The translations under genes were made by a program, and so were the position numbers. The notes under the pieces were generated by a model. It saw nothing but the letters and a program-made list of their open reading frames with translations. It was not told the origin of the DNA and ran no database searches. A stretch of 64,000 bases of DNA, from positions 1,117,117-1,181,116 of the forward strand of contig NZ_KB889967.1 in assembly GCF_000372885.1 (NCBI RefSeq), in the 5' to 3' direction. Below, in pieces: positions 25,670-40,878 of this stretch (the first letter of the stretch is position 1; each line of letters starts with the position of its first letter). Origin of the DNA: Methyloversatilis thermotolerans. GTDB lineage: Bacteria > Pseudomonadota > Gammaproteobacteria > Burkholderiales > Rhodocyclaceae.

Positions 25670-25713
25670 TTGACATCGCTGCGAATCCACGAATAATACG
25701 AACCATTCTCATT
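25670..25713 (+). promoter_or_regulatory. hemP promoter with Fur box
   Basis: TTGACA at 25670-25675, 17 bases, then ATAATA at 25693-25698. A 19-base site AATACGAACCATTCTCATT (25695-25713) overlaps the -10 and matches 14 of 19 positions with the site at 29219. It resembles the Fur consensus AATGAGAATNATTCTCATT, so the hemP-bfd genes are probably repressed by iron. Confidence 0.7.
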
Positions 25714-26291: not shown

Positions 26292-26771
26292 ATGAAGGGC
26301 GACAAGAAAGTCCTGCAGTTCCTGAACAAGCAGCTTGTCAATGAACTGACTGCGATCAACCAGTATTTCCTGCATGCGCGCATGTACAGGAACTGGGGAC
26401 TGAAAAAGCTGGGCGATCACGAGTACCACGAATCGATCGAGGAAATGAAGCATGCGGATGTGTTGATCGAGCGCATCCTGCTGCTCGAAGGCATTCCCAA
26501 CCTCCAGGATCTGCACAAGCTCATGATCGGCGAGAATGCGCCGGAAATGCTTGCCTGTGACCTGAAGCTCGAACAGGTGTCGCATGCCACACTGAAGGAC
26601 GCGATCACGTGTTGCGAAACGGCCGGTGACTACGTCTCCCGTGATCTGTTCCGGAAGATTCTCGCCGACACCGAAGAACATATTGACTGGCTTGAAACCC
26701 AGCTCGACCTCGTGGACAAGATGGGCTTGCAGAACTATCTGCAGTCCGCGATGGGCGAAGTGGGTAGCTGA
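26292..26771 (+). CDS. bfr: Bacterioferritin
   Basis: Iron-storage protein of 159 residues forming a 24-subunit shell. Ferroxidase ligands Glu18, Glu51 and His54 and the heme-binding Met52 are in place, so this is the heme-containing type. [20 protein letters not shown] is the usual N-terminus. Start follows GGGAGAA. A gap of 148 bases separates it from bfd, so it may have its own promoter, as bfr is normally induced by iron while bfd is repressed. Confidence 0.96.
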
Positions 26772-27903: not shown

Positions 27904-28662
27904 ATGAATGAAACCCTCGGTTTTGCCCACTTTCTTTCCAATGCGGATGGCGTGGCAAAGACGATCCTCGTGCTCATGGTGATCGCTTCGGTCGGCACCT
28001 GGTTCCTGATCGTGCTCAAGGGCATCGTCGCGCTGCGCCAGCGCAGCGCGAGCGGCAACTTCCTTGACCGCTTCTGGAATGCATCCTCGCTCGAGGACGT
28101 CGCACGCGACATGCGCTCCAATGGCGTCACCGATCCGTTCTCGCACCTCGTGCACGAGGGGTTCAGCGCGGTGGAGACATTGCGCAGTGGCAGCGCGGGC
28201 ACGCGTGGCCTGATCGCGACCGGCAGCGCCGACGAATTCCTGACGCGTGCGCTCAAGCGTTCGATCGAACGTGACCGGAGCCGGATGGAGTACGGACAGA
28301 CCTTCCTGGCGTCGGTCGCCTCCAGCGCGCCCTTCATCGGCCTGCTGGGTACCGTGTGGGGCATCTATCACGCCCTGCTGGCTATCGGTGCATCGGGTCA
28401 GGGTACGCTGGACAAGGTGGCCGGCCCGGTGGGCGAGGCGCTCATCATGACCGCCATCGGCCTGGCCACCGCCATCCCGGCGGCACTTGCCTTCAACTTC
28501 TTCGCCCGTTCGACGCGCAATGTGATGGCCGAACTGAACAGTTTTGCGCACGACGTATTCGTCATGCTGTCCACCGGCGTCAAGGACAGCGGTTCAAACG
28601 ATCCGCGCGCTACGGGTGATCGCGTGCTGTCGCTGGTCGAACGCAACCGCGGCACGCACTGA
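27904..28662 (+). CDS. exbB: ExbB proton channel protein (TonB partner)
   Basis: Inner-membrane protein of 252 residues with three helices. VASSAPFIGLLGTVWGIYHAL is the family signature and GEALIMTAIGLATAIPAALAF is the third helix. Forms the motor with ExbD next to it and drives TonB. It follows tonB by 75 bases. Better suited to heme and iron uptake than the first exbB (19.4 kb), which sits in the lpxK operon. Confidence 0.95.
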   Translation: MNETLGFAHFLSNADGVAKTILVLMVIASVGTWFLIVLKGIVALRQRSASGNFLDRFWNASSLEDVARDMRSNGVTDPFSHLVHEGFSAVETLRSGSAGTRGLIATGSADEFLTRALKRSIERDRSRMEYGQTFLASVASSAPFIGLLGTVWGIYHALLAIGASGQGTLDKVAGPVGEALIMTAIGLATAIPAALAFNFFARSTRNVMAELNSFAHDVFVMLSTGVKDSGSNDPRATGDRVLSLVERNRGTH

Positions 28663-28676
28663 ACGGAGTCCCCATC

Positions 28677-29096
28677 ATGGCATTTGCGAGTTTCGAGCAG
28701 GATGACGACGGTCCGATGGCGGAAATCAACATGATTCCGTTGATCGACGTGATGCTGGTGCTGCTCATCATATTCATGGTGACCGCGCCCTTGCTGACGC
28801 ATGCGGTGAAGGTTGACCTGCCGAAGGAGTCGACCAGCGCCAACCAGCTTCCTCCCGAGAACATCCAGATCGCGATCGGGCCCGACGAACAGCTTTACTG
28901 GGCCGGCGAGAAGGTCGATTCCGCCACGCTGACGGCACGTCTGCAGGAAGCGGCCGCCAAGGACAAGAGCACCGAAGTGCAGTTGCGCGCGGACCAGGGT
29001 GTGGCCTACCGCGCAGTAGCCCATGTCATGAGCGAAGCCGCGCGCCTGGGCTTGACGCGCATCGGCTTCGTGACCGATCCGAGCGCTGCGAAATAG
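28677..29096 (+). CDS. exbD: ExbD biopolymer transport protein (TonB partner)
   Basis: Product of 139 residues. One membrane helix with the proton-path Asp24 in INMIPLIDVMLVLLIIFMVT; the rest is periplasmic. It lies 14 bases after exbB. Completes the tonB-exbB-exbD unit that powers the heme receptor at 31.3 kb. Confidence 0.95.
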   Translation: MAFASFEQDDDGPMAEINMIPLIDVMLVLLIIFMVTAPLLTHAVKVDLPKESTSANQLPPENIQIAIGPDEQLYWAGEKVDSATLTARLQEAAAKDKSTEVQLRADQGVAYRAVAHVMSEAARLGLTRIGFVTDPSAAK

Positions 29097-29192
29097 GCGT
29101 TGCCGGGTCGGTAGCGCTGCTGTGCAGATCGCCTCTTGCTGCGGAAACGATTGCATTGGCGATAAAATGTTTCGTGTCCAGGCCTCACTTGC

Positions 29193-29237
29193 TTGACAGA
29201 GCGTGCGCCCGCTGTTGTAATGCGAATTGTTCTCATC
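29193..29237 (+). promoter_or_regulatory. Promoter with Fur box before the 81-residue gene and S4 paralogue
   Basis: TTGACA at 29193-29198, a 17-base spacer, then TGTAAT at 29216-29221: a near-consensus sigma-70 promoter. The 19-base site AATGCGAATTGTTCTCATC (29219-29237) overlaps the -10 and the start point. It shares 14 of 19 positions with each of the sites at 25695 and 33714. Zur is a possible alternative regulator. Confidence 0.7.
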
Positions 29238-29378
29238 GCGTCCCACGACGGGAACAATAGCCAGCCCCGCTCTGCTCCCCCGTCCGCAGATCAACGCCAG
29301 CCACCGCTTCATTCACGCGGGCGCGCCCTGGAGCTTTTCCAGGACGGTTGGCGTGAACACTCAAGACGGAGGATGCAC

Positions 29379-29624
29379 ATGAGTACGGACTGCAGCGAGA
29401 ACGCAGAGGCTAGCCCGAGCACGCTTGCCGCCGCCACGCTGTTCGTGATGACCCGCTTTGCCGAGCGTCCGTGCCCGGAAGTGGCTCAGATGGTCATCCG
29501 GCATCTGGAAGTCGTCGCCGACGACGAACGCGCCGATCCACTGATGCGCGAAGTCTGCGGCGCGCTGATCAACCGCTGGACCTTGCATGCCGTCGGCGAT
29601 ATATCGCCCCGGCCCGCACACTGA
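29379..29624 (+). CDS. Conserved small protein of unknown function
   Basis: Product of 81 residues, soluble, with no recognised domain. It is acidic and helical, with a core LAAATLFVMTRFAERPCPEVAQ and a C-terminal VCGALINRWTLHAV. Start at 29379 follows ACGGAGG; ATG 29373 is also in frame. It stands directly behind a Fur-box promoter and 17 bases before the alternative rpsD gene, so the two form an iron-responsive operon. Confidence 0.7.
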   Translation: MSTDCSENAEASPSTLAAATLFVMTRFAERPCPEVAQMVIRHLEVVADDERADPLMREVCGALINRWTLHAVGDISPRPAH

Positions 29625-29641
29625 AACAACACGGAGTTCCC

Positions 29642-30256
29642 ATGTCCCGTTACACCGGCCCCCGACTGCGCGTACTGCGCGCCCTCGGCACCGAGCTTCC
29701 CGGCCTGACCCGCAAATCGGCGGAAAACCGTACTTCGCCTCCGGGCCAGCACGGCGCACGTCCCAACCGTCGCAAGTCGGAATTCGGCGCCCAGTTGATG
29801 GAAAAGCAGAAGCTGCGCTACAACTACGGCCTGACCGAAACCCAGTTGCGCGCGGTGTTCAAGGAAGCTGAACGCTCCAAGCTGCCGACCGGTGAAAAGC
29901 TGGTCGAGCTGCTGGAGCGCCGCCTCGACAACATCGTGTTCCGCGGAGGCCTGGCGCCGACCATTCCCGCCGCGCGTCAGCTTGTGCGTCACCGTCACGT
30001 ACTGCTGAATGGTCGCAAGGTCAATATCCCGTCCATCCGTGTCCGCGTGGGCGACACCATCACGCTGACCGAGAAGGGCCGCAAGGTGCAGAGCGTGGTC
30101 GATGCGCTCGCCACTCCTTCACTTGAACGCGCGGAATGGATCGCCTTCGACGAGGCTTCGCTCACCCTTCGGCTGGCGCATTTGCCGCCGGGCGACGCCA
30201 CACCCTTTCCGTTCGAATCGCAGAAGGTCGTCGAGTTCTACGCCTTGCGCGTGTAA
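29642..30256 (+). CDS. rpsD: Divergent second ribosomal protein S4
   Basis: Ribosomal protein S4 of 204 residues. Family features are PPGQHGARPNRRKSEFGAQL, EKQKLRYNYGL, LLERRLDNIVFRGGL and the S4 RNA-binding domain (about 95-155). It differs strongly from the housekeeping betaproteobacterial S4 (ARYIGPK then CKLSRREGTDLF): it starts MSRYTGPRLRVLRALGTELP and has no Cys. It is not in a ribosomal operon but behind a small gene with a Fur-box promoter. So it is probably an alternative S4 used under iron (or zinc) limitation; that use is inferred. Confidence 0.9.
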   Translation: MSRYTGPRLRVLRALGTELPGLTRKSAENRTSPPGQHGARPNRRKSEFGAQLMEKQKLRYNYGLTETQLRAVFKEAERSKLPTGEKLVELLERRLDNIVFRGGLAPTIPAARQLVRHRHVLLNGRKVNIPSIRVRVGDTITLTEKGRKVQSVVDALATPSLERAEWIAFDEASLTLRLAHLPPGDATPFPFESQKVVEFYALRV

Positions 30257-30608
30257 CGCGGATCGCCGTCACCGCGCCATGCGGCGGACGGCGGAATCTG
30301 CGCGGCTGTCCGCTTGACGCGAACAGCCGGTACGGAATCAATCCACCGGTGATGCTGCACATGTTGTCCTTCCTCTCTCCTTTCCAGATCCTGCCTGCCG
30401 CAGGCCAGGGCACGTCCTGTACGAACTGCTGATCGGCATTCCGGCGCTCAGGGTGCGCGGCGCCGACAGCAGACCCTGGTAATCCGTCGTTCGACGGATT
30501 CACGACAGAAAGATCGCATGCGCTGACGACGCGGGGTCGTGGCTGATCCGTGAGGCCTTTCATGTGCCTTTCACGGAAGCGATCGATGCAGAGCTCGAAA
30601 GGACGATC
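30257..30608. other. Intergenic region between S4 paralogue and PEP-CTERM gene
   Basis: About 350 bases with no gene. A perfect 20-base palindrome is at 30481-30500. Sequence around 30263-30296 (CCGCC ... GGCGG) could end the rpsD transcript. No Fur-like site was seen here, unlike in front of the other iron genes. Confidence 0.4.
30481..30500. repeat. Perfect palindrome AATCCGTCG-TT-CGACGGATT
   Basis: Nine-base arms with a TT centre (effectively a 20-base inverted repeat), 109 bases before the PEP-CTERM gene. Likely an operator for a dimeric regulator or a transcript hairpin for the heme receptor locus. Confidence 0.55.
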
Positions 30609-31262
30609 ATGCATCTGAAGAAGACTCTGGCGACCGCGTTCGCCGGTGGCATCCTGGCCATTTCCTCGATGGCCGCCCATGCCGAAAGCTGGTATTCCAG
30701 CTACACCACCTCGTTCGATGTCAGCGGCTACGCCGAGTGGGACGTGTTCTCGACGGCCAGCGGTCAGAATGCGCCGGACGTGGCGACCAATCTGAGCGGC
30801 GCCTGGGTGCAGGAACACTCCGGTACCAGCTTCATCACCGGTGGCGGCAACATCTACAGCTTCGCGATGCCGACCGACTTCACGCTCTATGCGCCAACCG
30901 CAAGCGGCACTGGCACACGCGACGTCGTGCTGCGCATCATGACCCTGGGCACAGCGCTCGATCTCAGTTCCATCACGCTGGGCGGTCTGACCTATGACAG
31001 CTATTCGCTGCTCGGGTCAGAAACGCTTGGCGGCATGGGCGGCGAAGGTCAGGAGCTGGTATTCGTCTGGAATGACGTCGCGAATGCCGACGGACTGACT
31101 TTCGACTTCAACGCACTGGGCAGCAGCATGAGTCTTGCCCGCGCCTCGGTGTATTACAGCTCCCTCGAATCGCTGCCGGCCGTTCCCGAGCCTTCGACAT
31201 GGGCAACCATGATCGCCGGCCTCGGTCTGCTCGCAGCCATCGGACGTCGCCGCCTCGGCTGA
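30609..31262 (+). CDS. PEP-CTERM surface protein in heme locus, copy 1
   Basis: Exported protein of 217 residues. Signal peptide about 1-25 (ending SMAAHA) and a C-terminal PEP-CTERM sorting signal (192-217: VPEPSTWA, hydrophobic helix, then RRR). Such proteins are processed by an exosortase and placed on the cell surface. The mature domain is beta-rich, with GNIYSFAMP and SETLGGMGGEGQE; it resembles the PEP-CTERM protein at 34066. It sits 46 bases upstream of the heme receptor gene. Function unknown; heme capture at the surface is a hypothesis. Start follows AAAGGA. Confidence 0.85.
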   Translation: MHLKKTLATAFAGGILAISSMAAHAESWYSSYTTSFDVSGYAEWDVFSTASGQNAPDVATNLSGAWVQEHSGTSFITGGGNIYSFAMPTDFTLYAPTASGTGTRDVVLRIMTLGTALDLSSITLGGLTYDSYSLLGSETLGGMGGEGQELVFVWNDVANADGLTFDFNALGSSMSLARASVYYSSLESLPAVPEPSTWATMIAGLGLLAAIGRRRLG

Positions 31263-31308: not shown

Positions 31309-33522
31309 ATGACCCATTCCGTTTCCGGGCCCTCCTTCGGGCGGCTCGTGTTCGCTTTCGCCCTTGCGCTGGGCACGTCCGCGTCCGTCGCGCAGGTGGT
31401 CAGCGACGACGATGCAGCCGACAACGCAGAGAACGTCGTCGAACTGCCGGACGTGAAAGTCCAGGACACCCGCATCGATGATCGCATCGACCGCTCGCGT
31501 TCCATTACGCGGATCGACAGCGAAGAAATGCAGAAGCGCATGCCCGGCAATATTTTCGACGCGGTGCGCGATGTGCCCGGCGTGCAGATCAATGGTGGCG
31601 TGCGCGCCAGCGGCATGACCTTCGAAATCCGCGGATTCAGCGATACCGAGGACGTACGCGTCAGCGTGGACGGGGTGTCCAAGGGCTTCGAGAAATACCG
31701 CTTCGGCGGCACCTTCATCGAGCCCGAGCTGTTGAAATCCATCGAAATCCAGCGCGGCCCGCAGATCGATGCGATGGCGGGTGCCGTCGGCGGCGCGGTC
31801 AAGGCGGAAACCAAGAATGCATCCGATCTGCTCGATCCCGGTCAACGGGTGGGCGCGACGGTGCGGACCAGCTTCGCGACCAATAACAGCGAGCGCATGC
31901 GCTCGGCCGCCTTGTATGGCCGTCCGCACGACAGGCTGGATCTGCTGTTCAATACGCTGGAAAGGGATTCGCAGAACATCAAGCTGCCCGATGGCAGCCG
32001 ATACGCGAATTCGGCAGTGCAGACCGACAGCGCACTGCTCAAGACGTCCTGGTGGGTGACCGACGAACTGATCTGGAGCTATTCGCTCACCCGCTACAAG
32101 GACGCGGGCCTGCAACCTTACGATGCCGCGACCGGCAACCCGGGGGTCGGCGGCATCGTGAGGAGACAGATCGACGATACGACGCATGCCCACACTATCC
32201 GTTACCAGCCGGCCGACAATCCGCTGATCAACACACGTGCCAGCTTCGGCTACAGCGCTACGGAACTGGTCGATCAGCACCGCCTCGGCCTGTCCACTCT
32301 GGTCAGTTCGAGCAATCCGTCGCGCGACGATTTCTGGACTTACCGGCATACCACCCTGGGCCTGTCCAACCTGTCCGATTTCGGCCCGGGCTTCGGGCTG
32401 GACAGCCGCAAGCTGCTCATCGGCATCCAGTACGACAAGAACCGGCGCGAATCGCTTACTTTCGTCGCCAATGCCTTGACACAACAGAACCAGTTTCCGG
32501 GTGGATACAACCCGCAACAACCGCCCGGCACCCGGGTTGCACACGGTGTCTACGTCCAGCCTCAACTCACGGCAGGCATCGTCACGCTGATGCCCGGCCT
32601 GCGCTATGACTACAGCAAGGTGATCGCGGAAGGTCCGGCCGCCGTGACGCTGGCCAATGCGGGCGAAGCGGACCGCATCACCGTGAAGCGCTACAGTCCG
32701 AGTCTGGGCATCCTGGTCGATCCCGTGCGCGGCTGGACGCTGTTCTACAACTACGCGGAGTCCTTTCGTCCCCCATTGGTCGACGAGTACTTTTCATCGG
32801 GCATCTACAGCCGCTGCCTGGCCGGCTACGTGGGCGCTGCACGCCGGTCAACGGACATGTGCGGAGACGCCTACCTGCCGCAACTGAACACGACGCGGGA
32901 GTTCGGGACATCCTGGCGTTACGCTGATCCGCTCACGGCGCGTTCGCTGTCGGCCAAACTCACCTACTTCGACATCCGCTCGACCCAGTTGCTTGATTCC
33001 ATTACCGCGGTCGGTACCGAAATCGTGCAACCCGGTCATTCCGAGCGTCACGGCGTCGAGCTCGAATTGAATGCCGCCTACGGACGCTACTTCGGCAGCT
33101 TCAGCTACAGCTATCTGCGCGGTGACATGTTTACCTGCTATGGCAGCGGCATCTGCTACGTGACCGGCTCCCGCCCCAACCTGCCGCAATCGGCACCGCT
33201 CAGAGGCGCTGGCGAAAGTGCATCGCTGCGCGTCGGCGCAGGTTTCCTGGACGGTATGCTGGAGCTGGCCTACACACTGCGTATCGTGTCCGGACGCGAA
33301 GCCTATGGCGCAGTCATGGTCGGCGGCAGCGCCGAAGTACTTGAACTTGACGGCTACCGCCTGCACGGCGTGCAGATGTCGGTTCGCCCGAATCGCCACG
33401 TCGAGTTCCAGGTCGCGGGGGAAAACCTGGGCAACGCCTCCTATTACACGATGGCCGGCCAGTCGCGCGGCATCCCGGCGGCCGGACGCAATGTGCGATT
33501 CGCGCTCACGCTGCGCTATTGA
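31309..33522 (+). CDS. TonB-dependent heme/hemoglobin receptor
   Basis: Outer-membrane receptor of 737 residues. Signal peptide about 1-28, a probable TonB box ELPDVKVQDTR near 45, plug domain (about 60-165, with VPGVQINGGVRASGMTFEIRG and VSVDGVSKGFEKYRFGG), then a 22-strand barrel ending with aromatic Tyr (LTLRY), as outer-membrane barrels do. Plug and barrel motifs fit the hemoglobin/transferrin/lactoferrin family (HemR/HmuR). Context with hmuSTUV and hemP supports heme as ligand. Extracellular Cys residues (CLAG, MCGD, TCYGSGICY) may form disulfides. No good ribosome binding site was found. Confidence 0.92.
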   Translation: MTHSVSGPSFGRLVFAFALALGTSASVAQVVSDDDAADNAENVVELPDVKVQDTRIDDRIDRSRSITRIDSEEMQKRMPGNIFDAVRDVPGVQINGGVRASGMTFEIRGFSDTEDVRVSVDGVSKGFEKYRFGGTFIEPELLKSIEIQRGPQIDAMAGAVGGAVKAETKNASDLLDPGQRVGATVRTSFATNNSERMRSAALYGRPHDRLDLLFNTLERDSQNIKLPDGSRYANSAVQTDSALLKTSWWVTDELIWSYSLTRYKDAGLQPYDAATGNPGVGGIVRRQIDDTTHAHTIRYQPADNPLINTRASFGYSATELVDQHRLGLSTLVSSSNPSRDDFWTYRHTTLGLSNLSDFGPGFGLDSRKLLIGIQYDKNRRESLTFVANALTQQNQFPGGYNPQQPPGTRVAHGVYVQPQLTAGIVTLMPGLRYDYSKVIAEGPAAVTLANAGEADRITVKRYSPSLGILVDPVRGWTLFYNYAESFRPPLVDEYFSSGIYSRCLAGYVGAARRSTDMCGDAYLPQLNTTREFGTSWRYADPLTARSLSAKLTYFDIRSTQLLDSITAVGTEIVQPGHSERHGVELELNAAYGRYFGSFSYSYLRGDMFTCYGSGICYVTGSRPNLPQSAPLRGAGESASLRVGAGFLDGMLELAYTLRIVSGREAYGAVMVGGSAEVLELDGYRLHGVQMSVRPNRHVEFQVAGENLGNASYYTMAGQSRGIPAAGRNVRFALTLRY

Positions 33523-33703: not shown

Positions 33704-33732
33704 TTGACGCATAACTGCGAATCATTATCATT
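33704..33732 (+). promoter_or_regulatory. Promoter with Fur box before the hmu genes
   Basis: TTGACG at 33704-33709, 16 bases, TATCAT at 33726-33731. The 19-base site ACTGCGAATCATTATCATT (33714-33732) covers the spacer and -10 and is a good Fur-box match (GAATCATTATCATT). It should drive the 62-residue gene and the downstream PEP-CTERM-hmuSTUV genes. Confidence 0.75.
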
Positions 33733-33772: not shown

Positions 33773-33961
33773 ATGACAGACACCGGCCAGAACGCCCAGG
33801 CACTGAAAGCGCGCCTCGGTACCTTGCTCGATGAGCTGATACGCCATGACGGCTTCGGTTCGCTCAAGGTCGAGGTGCGCCTGCTCAAGCGCGGGCAGAA
33901 GGAAGTGATCATCGACTGCGGCAAGCAGTATCGATACGTGATCGACTTCGTACCGGGTTGA
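33773..33961 (+). CDS. Small protein of unknown function, first gene of hmu operon
   Basis: Product of 62 residues, MTDTGQNAQALKARLGTLLD at the start and QKEVIIDCGKQYRYVIDFVP at the end, with one Cys. It has a helical first half and beta-rich second half, soluble. An in-frame ATG at 33758 would add five residues. It is placed directly after a Fur-box promoter, so it is probably made when iron is scarce. I do not recognise the family; a heme-handling or regulatory role is possible. Confidence 0.6.
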   Translation: MTDTGQNAQALKARLGTLLDELIRHDGFGSLKVEVRLLKRGQKEVIIDCGKQYRYVIDFVPG

Positions 33962-34065
33962 CCTGCAATCGTCCAGCGGCGCGAGGCCGCGGACAGTCAA
34001 CCTTTTCCCTACATACAGACTTGCCTTCGCGGGGAAGGAAGCATCTGATCCAGGACATCACCAGA

Positions 34066-34710
34066 ATGCTCATCCGTCCCTTTCTCGGCGCACTGCTGAT
34101 CAGTGCCCTCCCCTTGCAAGCCCATGCGCTCAGCGGCAGTTGGGACAGCCCCCTGGCTGGCCTGTCCGGTACGGGCAGTTCCGCATCCACCGCATGGATT
34201 GCCGACGGCATCGGCGCAGAGTGGAACCGCTTCGACAATCCGCTCACCGACAACAGTCCGGATATCGCCGGTAGCGGCACGCTCAGCCAGACGCTTCCAG
34301 GCGCCGGCAGCTTCCTCACCAGCACCGGCAATCTATACAGTTCAGGGGGACCGGCCAGTTTCAGCGTCGCCCTCGATGCGGCCCTCAGCGGCACCTGGAC
34401 GATATGGCTGCGGGTCGCCACCCAGGGTACCGTGGCGGACGACATCGCCACGCTCAATGGCGTCACCGCCAGCAAGACCGTGAGTTACAGCTCGACGCTC
34501 GGCGGCTTCGGCGGCAGTGAAGAGGAAGCATGGTGGAGCTGGACGGTGACCAGTCCGCTGTCGCTCGATTTCCTCTTCACCAGTTCCGCCGCCCATATGA
34601 GTCTGGACCAACTTGCGATTCTCGCCGCGCCGGTGCCCGAACCGCGCGCCTGGATGCTGCTTGCATCCGGTCTGGCGCTGCTCGGACTGGCCCCGCTTCG
34701 CAGACGCTGA
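34066..34710 (+). CDS. PEP-CTERM surface protein in heme locus, copy 2
   Basis: Exported protein of 214 residues with a signal peptide (about 1-21, ending LQAHA) and a C-terminal PEP-CTERM signal (190-214: VPEPRAWM, hydrophobic helix, then RRR). The mature part (W-rich, GTLSQTLPGAGSF, GNLYSSGG, SSTLGGFGGSEEEAWW) lines up with the first PEP-CTERM protein through a shared GN(I/L)YS, a TLGG(M/F)GG(E/S) motif and the same spacing to the sorting signal. It is 12 bases before hmuS, so it is co-transcribed with the heme transport genes. Function unknown; surface heme binding is a plausible guess. Confidence 0.83.
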   Translation: MLIRPFLGALLISALPLQAHALSGSWDSPLAGLSGTGSSASTAWIADGIGAEWNRFDNPLTDNSPDIAGSGTLSQTLPGAGSFLTSTGNLYSSGGPASFSVALDAALSGTWTIWLRVATQGTVADDIATLNGVTASKTVSYSSTLGGFGGSEEEAWWSWTVTSPLSLDFLFTSSAAHMSLDQLAILAAPVPEPRAWMLLASGLALLGLAPLRRR

Positions 34711-34722
34711 CAGGAACCCGCC

Positions 34723-35778
34723 ATGACTGGATACGCCACCCCCCAGGACCTTCACAAGGCTTTTCACGCGCTGAAAGCGGAACGCCGTCTGCGCAATCGC
34801 GATGCCGCGCAGGCGATGGGCATCACGGAATGCGAGGCCATCGCCAGTGGCGTCGGTGTGGACGCAGTACGGCTGGCCGCCCCGCTCGATGCATTGTTCC
34901 GCCGCATGCCCGAATTGGGCGAAGTGATGGTACTGACCCGCAATGAAGCGGCCGTGCACGAGAAGACCGGCCGCTTCGAGCAGGTCTCCGGCGATGCGAA
35001 GGTGGGTCTCACGCTCGGCGTGATCGACCTGCGCATATTCTTCGGCCGCTGGGCCCATGGCTATGCGGTGGTCGAACAGACCCCGCGCGGCGAATCGCGC
35101 AGCTTCCAGTTCTTCGACGCGCACGGGGAGGCGGTGCACAAGGTGTACTCGCGCGCCGACACCCGGCTCGATGCCTGGGACACCCTGGTGCGTGAACACG
35201 CTGACAGCAATCAGTCTCCCGGCGAGACCGTGGTCGCGAAGGACGCTCCGGTGGCCGAAAAGCCGGCGGAACAGATCGACGTCGAGCGCTTCCGTCAGGA
35301 CTGGCTGGCGATGAAGGACACGCACGAGTTCTTTCCGCTGCTCGGCCGTCATGGCGTGTCGCGCCGGCAGGCGCTGCAGTTCGCGCCGGCCGGGCATGCG
35401 GAACGCATCGGCAACGAGCGCATCCAGCAGATGCTGGACAGCGCGGCGCGCGATGGCACATCCATCATGTGCTTTGTCGGCAATCCGGGCATGATCCAGA
35501 TCCACACCGGCCCGGTGCACCGGATCGAAGTGATGGGGCCATGGCTCAATGTGCTGGACCCGGGATTCAATCTGCATCTGCGCACCGACCTGGTCGAGCA
35601 GGCGTGGATCGTGCGCAAGCCGACGTCGGATGGTGTCGTCACATCGGTCGAACTGCTCGACGCCGCCGGGGAAACGATCGCGCTGTTCTTCGGCGAACGC
35701 AAGCCCGGCAAGCCGGAACGGGAAGACTGGCGTGCGCTGGTCGCCACGCTGTCGTCCCCGGCCAGCCTCGCCGCATGA
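34723..35778 (+). CDS. hmuS: Hemin-degrading factor HmuS
   Basis: Cytoplasmic heme-binding protein of 351 residues of the HemS/ChuS/HmuS family, which takes heme from the transporter and degrades or delivers it. Two similar halves, about 1-165 and 185-350, are visible by the repeated pattern of GD.KVGLTLGVIDLRIFFGRW and PGMIQIHTGPVHRIEVMGPW. Ends with the ATGA overlap to hmuT. Its position after the receptor and PEP-CTERM gene supports heme import. Confidence 0.94.
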   Translation: MTGYATPQDLHKAFHALKAERRLRNRDAAQAMGITECEAIASGVGVDAVRLAAPLDALFRRMPELGEVMVLTRNEAAVHEKTGRFEQVSGDAKVGLTLGVIDLRIFFGRWAHGYAVVEQTPRGESRSFQFFDAHGEAVHKVYSRADTRLDAWDTLVREHADSNQSPGETVVAKDAPVAEKPAEQIDVERFRQDWLAMKDTHEFFPLLGRHGVSRRQALQFAPAGHAERIGNERIQQMLDSAARDGTSIMCFVGNPGMIQIHTGPVHRIEVMGPWLNVLDPGFNLHLRTDLVEQAWIVRKPTSDGVVTSVELLDAAGETIALFFGERKPGKPEREDWRALVATLSSPASLAA

Positions 35779-40859: not shown

Positions 40860-40878
40860 AGTGAGAACGGTTATCATC
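40860..40878 (-). promoter_or_regulatory. Fur box of the feo operon
   Basis: Read on the minus strand: GATGATAACCGTTCTCACT, matching 13 of 19 positions with the hemP site. A possible -35 TTGCAG and -10 TGATAA (spacer 18) surround and overlap it. Supports iron repression of feoA-feoB. Confidence 0.6.

Follow-up and report, generated by a model that had tools for sequence, protein, structure and literature searches.

Why should a bacterium keep a second gene for ribosomal protein uS4, with a product free of cysteine, among genes for iron and heme use? uS4 is an early assembly protein of the 30S subunit and is tied to decoding accuracy. To our knowledge, metal-controlled swaps of ribosomal proteins have so far all concerned zinc and have been run by Zur. 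Here we ask what controls this second gene, which we call rpsD C-, and what its product might do. The window, meaning the whole 64,000-nucleotide stretch of DNA analyzed, corresponds to G000:C1:1117117-1181116 of a 4.16-Mb genome, and the closest named relatives by uS4 are Methyloversatilis (94% and 90% identity).

A Cys-free uS4 gene among iron and heme genes

Profile match and translation identify the gene (P0001; 29642-30256, plus strand) as a uS4 paralogue of 204 aa. The protein scores above the cut-off of the rpsD equivalog TIGR01017 (209.6 versus 177.2 bits) and above that of NF003717 (230.8 versus 116). It contains no cysteine, the CxxC...CxxxxC stretch found in the main protein is missing and, as is characteristic of the bacterial C- form, the N-terminus is shorter than in the C+ form. 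The main rpsD lies at G000:C1:3981445 in the alpha operon, where genes read as rpsK and rpoA flank it, and its product carries the cysteine motif as KCRQC...KCFTDKC. The two proteins are 41% identical over query residues 26-201. The original prediction, of a second, divergent, Cys-free S4 preceded by an 81-residue gene, thus agrees with what we find: the genome has another rpsD, the absence of which would have undone the idea, and positions 29379-29624 (plus strand; P0002) encode 81 aa, with GGAGG 5' of the start.

The surroundings are likewise of the iron/heme kind that had been proposed. On the plus strand, upstream, lie a bacterioferritin-type gene (26292-26771; Pfam Ferritin, 1.3e-38), exbB (27904-28662; MotA_ExbB, 7.6e-32) and exbD (28677-29096; ExbD, 1.5e-33). 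A TonB-dependent receptor gene (31309-33522; TonB_dep_Rec and Plug) follows 3' of rpsD C- on the same strand, as does the hemin utilisation gene hmuS/hemS (34723-35778; HemS, 7.1e-82). Also encoded among these genes are two PEP-CTERM-type exported proteins, at 30606-31262 (Pfam) and 33958-34710 (by reading). An Rfam scan of 28900-30700 gave no match up to E 0.5. Compared with three genomes of the same genus by the Nei-Gojobori method, P0001 has dN of 0.045-0.091 and dS of 0.76-0.85, and P0002 has dN of 0.039-0.097 and dS of 0.62-0.96. Because dN is low relative to dS in each case, both genes are apparently under purifying selection.

A putative Fur operator overlaps the promoter

A promoter of the form TTGACA-N17-TGTAAT had been claimed ahead of the small gene, and it is present at the positions given, with the -35 hexamer at 29193-29198 and the -10 hexamer at 29216-29221, both read from the plus strand. 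A promoter/terminator scan of 29000-30700 listed none; it demands an A at position 2 of the -10 hexamer, where TGTAAT has a G, which explains the missing promoter. Overlapping the -10 hexamer and the probable start site is a putative Fur operator of the 7-1-7 form, TGCGAATTGTTCTCA (29221-29235, plus strand). This operator form is described in a paper on Nitrosomonas europaea Fur (PMC3050691). The operator scores 19.0, a value reached by none of 40 shuffles, with a 7-1-7 matrix that we set by hand from the consensus once some of the sites had been inspected. The Fur-like box of the original prediction had been drawn as a 19-mer at 29219-29237, which agrees with the E. coli Fur 19-mer consensus at 9 of 19 positions. 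The best frame (29216) reaches 12 of 19. Since matches at this level turn up 26 times on a single strand of the window, counting 19-mer matches has no significance by itself, and we dropped the count as evidence for Fur. What survives is the 15-bp 7-1-7 form, which is rare genome-wide. Among five Methyloversatilis promoters, two of which (L040 and L091) are from close kin, CTTGAC and a AATGCGAAT..TTC island are kept, and the flanks are poorly alignable.

The pattern TGMKAAYNRTTMKCA occurs at seven sites in the genome, compared to zero for a reversed-pattern control, and three of the seven fall inside the window. By matrix, the window has four sites scoring >16, and reading assigns their loci to bfd, rpsD C-, hemin and feoB. 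Besides the operator described above, these are a site at 25697-25711 (16.5, with one pattern mismatch), 5' of a bfd-like gene named by reading; one at 33716-33730 (22.8), before a small gene and then the hemin genes; and one at 40862-40876 (16.7), beside a minus-strand feoB-type gene named by reading only. All three are on the plus strand. Elsewhere in the genome, one pattern site adjoins a gene pair for a DUF2325 protein and a solute-binding protein, the latter read as being of the iron type, whereas at three others (L171, L175 and L176) reading revealed no clear iron gene nearby. The genome encodes three FUR-family proteins, which by reading appear to be Fur (FUR family, 1.4e-46), a Zur-like protein (L178) and a PerR-like protein. 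Both features by which we judged membership of a Fur regulon, a genome encoding Fur and a conserved 7-1-7 operator over the promoter, were therefore found.

Fur-type sites precede rpsD C- across the family

To see how general this arrangement is, we surveyed 150 genomes of the family and found a C- uS4 in 43, the host included. These calls rest on close matches of at least 222 bits, the remaining listed matches scoring at most 136 bits. Thirty-eight of the 43 genomes have two S4 matches and five have one (G013, G035, G047, G090 and G102), G035 and G090 being less than 90% complete. An earlier set of 44 loci also contained L037; because it comes from a duplicate of genome G090, already represented by L064, it was left out of the 43 loci. 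The four-cysteine motif is missing from all 43 C- proteins, 24 of which contain no Cys at all. All four cysteines are retained in the C+ proteins of 10/10 two-copy and 10/10 C+-only family genomes.

With the same hand-set matrix, a Fur-type site scoring >12 was found in the 500 nt before the S4 start at 20 of the 43 loci, compared to 1 of 224 control genes drawn from these genomes in 20 arbitrarily chosen stretches of 13 kb (Fisher P = 2.7e-17). At the same threshold and distance, a hand-set Zur-type matrix of the E. coli form gave no site at any of the 43. Seven additional loci have a Fur-type site within 6 kb. When we looked further upstream, 13 of 14 loci had a site >12, 12 of them newly counted. 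This brings the total to 39 of the 43 loci when Fur-type sites as far as 12 kb upstream are included. In 260 kb of control DNA there are two such sites >12. The original prediction had called an S4 paralogue at an iron-type box unusual, but in this family it is near the rule. The loci with no counted site are L023, L050, L061 (10.5) and L071 (11.3, before a TonB receptor), the latter two falling below 12 despite the presence of both S4 forms.

The far-upstream boxes precede ExbB/ExbD, HemP-like, DUF2325 or TonB-receptor genes on the S4 strand; beyond these box-proximal genes come CobN and then, nearer S4, ExbB-like and DUF2149 genes. One caveat here is that co-transcription across the 8-12 kb is an assumption. 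Nine loci (L045, L049, L058, L071-L075 and L078) share a same-strand run of a TonB receptor and a CobN-type chelatase, together with ExbB-like and DUF2149 genes, and rpsD C- comes late in the run. In most such loci, a Fur-type box stands ahead of the run. CobN/TonB operons elsewhere are Zur-linked.

Iron genes change around a constant rpsD C-

One or more core iron genes are present within 6 kb at 29 of the 43 family loci versus 1 of 20 controls, and at 7 of 9 loci from the order. Among 80 named loci, comprising 70 C- and 10 C+ forms, the corresponding numbers are 20/70 for C- and 0/10 for C+. These counts lean upwards, since some of the query proteins were taken from the very loci examined and one of the 29 is the window itself. 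At the other 50 named C- loci, no core iron gene was found in this range, and the C+ status of these genomes is established in a minority. Several arrangements recur: rpsD C- may diverge from feoAB (feoA named by reading), follow a hemP-like gene (identified by tblastn and reading) or ChaN, or stand behind the box with no partner. Further partners are Bfr, FecR and TonB-receptor genes, and many of the annotated neighbors are iron or heme genes. Across these varying iron neighborhoods, rpsD C- is the constant part. An Azoarcus MAG (L100) has neither a core iron gene within 6 kb nor a box.

Distribution of the box in other lineages

In family f25, probably the Methylophilaceae, four genomes with both S4 forms have boxes scoring 19.3-22.8, and two C--only genomes have scores of 12.5 (AT-rich) and 5.2. 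In C--only G173, exbD and a TonB receptor gene still adjoin the C- gene. Two C--only genomes of genus g47 in family f1 have no box. By contrast, G013, likewise C--only, keeps a Fur-type site ahead of a hemP-like gene, at -834. A rule that the box is found only where the C+ form is kept would thus have two lineages for it and one against. Another exception may be L145, a Polyangia MAG in which we found a single S4 match and a site scoring 17.1. Among genomes of the order outside the family, 7 of 10 have a site >12 within 500 nt, the weak G173 site included. G482 has its site at -1121, and G376 has both S4 forms and no box upstream.

We found a comparable arrangement in another phylum. All three Nannocystis genomes tested have both S4 forms, and at four Nannocystis loci the C- gene has the box TGAAAATTGATATCA at -41, with a score of 13.5. 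At all four, the C- gene and an importer operon point in opposite directions; the operon comprises genes for a periplasmic binding protein, a FecCD permease and an ABC protein, identified by Pfam in L125 and L134 and by tblastn in L127 and L128. The Nannocystis box may be a target of either Fur or Zur in that phylum. Two Sorangium genomes have both S4 forms and neither an iron gene nor a box. On a uS4 tree of 125 proteins (115 C- and 10 C+, after merging of seven identical proteins from 132), the iron label changes 10 times, compared to a mean of 41.8 for shuffled labels; the tree was made by a quick method and has several long branches.

The 81-residue protein

P0002 has no family match in Pfam or NCBIfam, and 14 relatives gave nothing better than E 0.13 in Pfam and nothing in NCBIfam. 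Its predicted fold consists of three helices (mean pLDDT 85) and has no match in the PDB (best E 0.64). Profile comparison links P0002 to small genes beside rpsD C- in other lineages, with E values of 7e-9 to 0.012, compared to 0.053 or worse for controls (shuffled and HemP). Several of the rpsD-linked small-gene groups do not match one another, and the feo-linked group is the weakest. An HMM of the small-protein family found members in 22 of 369 genomes of the class. For the homologues outside the window (L234-L256), a Fur-type site >13 lies upstream in 19 of 23 loci, a count that stands without a shuffle control. In these loci of ~3 kb, no rpsD was read beside the homologues. P0002 seems to be a small protein of general association with Fur, into whose operon rpsD was drawn. 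A role as helper in the assembly of the swapped 30S subunit is a guess.

A model for iron-dependent exchange of uS4

On the evidence of sequence, it is very probable that rpsD C- is under Fur control. In the model that we propose, Fe-Fur would occupy 29221-29235 when iron is present, covering the -10 hexamer and the start site and blocking transcription. As iron falls, Fur would depart, and the small helical protein and the Cys-free uS4 would be made alongside the heme/iron uptake genes. The Cys-free uS4 would then enter new 30S subunits instead of the main uS4. Thermus uS4 is reported to hold an Fe4S4 cluster (PMC10450194), and it is on account of this report that we propose an iron-sparing swap. 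Since the CxxC...CxxxxC site of the main uS4 here also probably holds an iron-sulfur cluster, ribosomes with the C- form would spend neither iron nor cluster-assembly capacity on uS4. The presence of a second S4 and an iron-repressor switch in many relatives suggests that an iron-binding part of the ribosome is swapped when iron is short, and the C- form could in this way change ribosomes under metal stress.

Regulation is the well-supported half of this model. The function of the C- form in the ribosome we infer, as we do Fur binding, induction at low iron, entry into the ribosome and the metal of the main uS4. We put the probability of the model as a whole, a Fur-controlled iron-starvation unit with an iron-sparing replacement of uS4, at about 0.55. 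Taken by itself, the iron-sparing swap stands at roughly even odds. A broader version, in which a Fur-derepressed Cys-free uS4 replaces an iron-sulfur uS4 to give an iron-sparing ribosome in at least two phyla, is tentative and falls a little short of that.

Three other explanations deserve consideration. Control by Fur may be real and yet save no metal, the C- form serving instead to tune decoding or 30S assembly, or acting outside the ribosome (e.g. on S4-regulated mRNA). We regard this as unlikely, though it is the strongest of the three. Ribosomes of the E. coli type are not known to require a metal in S4, and iron is here the presumed metal of the main uS4. Chen et al. (PMC3087516) report C- copies linked to sporulation in Clostridia. 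However, the C- form lacks every ligand of the motif while its C+ partner retains all four cysteines, and that it can serve alone is shown by genomes with no S4 found other than C-. A more doubtful view is that the box serves the small gene or the neighboring uptake genes, with rpsD C- as a passenger. The small-protein family stands alone behind Fur-type boxes in other Gammaproteobacteria (the 19 of 23 loci above), and S4 may have joined a pre-existing Fur operon. Against this, in some loci the box lies close before rpsD C-, at -39 in L046, for example, which leaves no room for a gene, and the partners change (feoAB, hemP-like, ChaN, CobN or none) from locus to locus.

Finally, the exchange might concern zinc and be run by Zur, as in the L31, L36 and S14 pairs. 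Such swaps are established for other ribosomal proteins, Zur boxes resemble Fur boxes, and the genome has the Zur-like gene (L178, named by reading). Moreover, L045 has one Zur-matrix site (12.3), which lies ~9 kb upstream and overlaps the Fur sites of that locus. Nevertheless, within 500 nt the Zur-type matrix found 0/43 against 20/43 for Fur, the neighbors are iron genes, and the same box occurs beside iron uptake genes in the host genome itself. The L31 gene (L312) is at G000:C1:1706264; it is single-copy and keeps its cysteines, so a zinc-type L31 swap is absent from this genome, in which ZnuA was not found. Chen et al. likewise saw no Zur site near S4 paralogues (PMC3087516). These data make zinc exchange the least probable of the alternatives, and very improbable in absolute terms.

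If the iron-sparing model is correct, two questions become accessible to experiment: whether in ordinary mesophilic bacteria the cluster of uS4 is of the iron-sulfur kind in vivo, and whether cells remodel their ribosomes to save iron. The model would also account for a puzzle from 2009, that of S4 paralogues with no Zur site nearby (PMC3087516).

Relation to known systems

Within the literature covered, which excluded most subscription journals and preprints, we found no report of iron or Fur control of uS4. The accessible text on Nitrosomonas europaea Fur (PMC3050691) contains neither 'ribosomal' nor 'rpsD'. The closest precedent is the work of Chen, Roberts and Luthey-Schulten (2009; PMC3087516), where C+ uS4 is called zinc-binding and the table has Nitrosomonas europaea as its sole betaproteobacterium, plus three deltaproteobacteria. 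The gene studied here resembles their C-(IV) uS4 paralogues, in being Cys-free and outside the alpha operon with a C+ copy inside. It differs in having a candidate regulator: section 8 of that paper names none for S4 paralogues, and the word 'iron' is absent from the text.

The Zur-controlled zinc-free paralogues of L31, S14, S18, L28, L33 and other ribosomal proteins offer a second comparison, since there too a metal-free copy stands behind a repressor of the Fur superfamily. In our case, the box is of the Fur type, the neighbors are iron genes, and the protein is one reported with an iron-sulfur cluster in Thermus. The arrangement proposed here is thus an extension of the known Zur/zinc swaps to a Fur/iron case.

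Iron saving of this sort is also familiar from metabolism. According to PMC3377617, the Pseudomonas fagA-fumC-orfX-sodA operon, led by fagA, lies downstream of a putative Fur motif, and under iron limitation fumC and Mn-sodA go up and Fe-SodB goes down. The saving that we propose for the C- uS4 can be likened to that achieved by Fur-linked FumC and Mn-SodA. The difference is that the Pseudomonas operon replaces metabolic enzymes, whereas the unit described here would replace a ribosomal protein.
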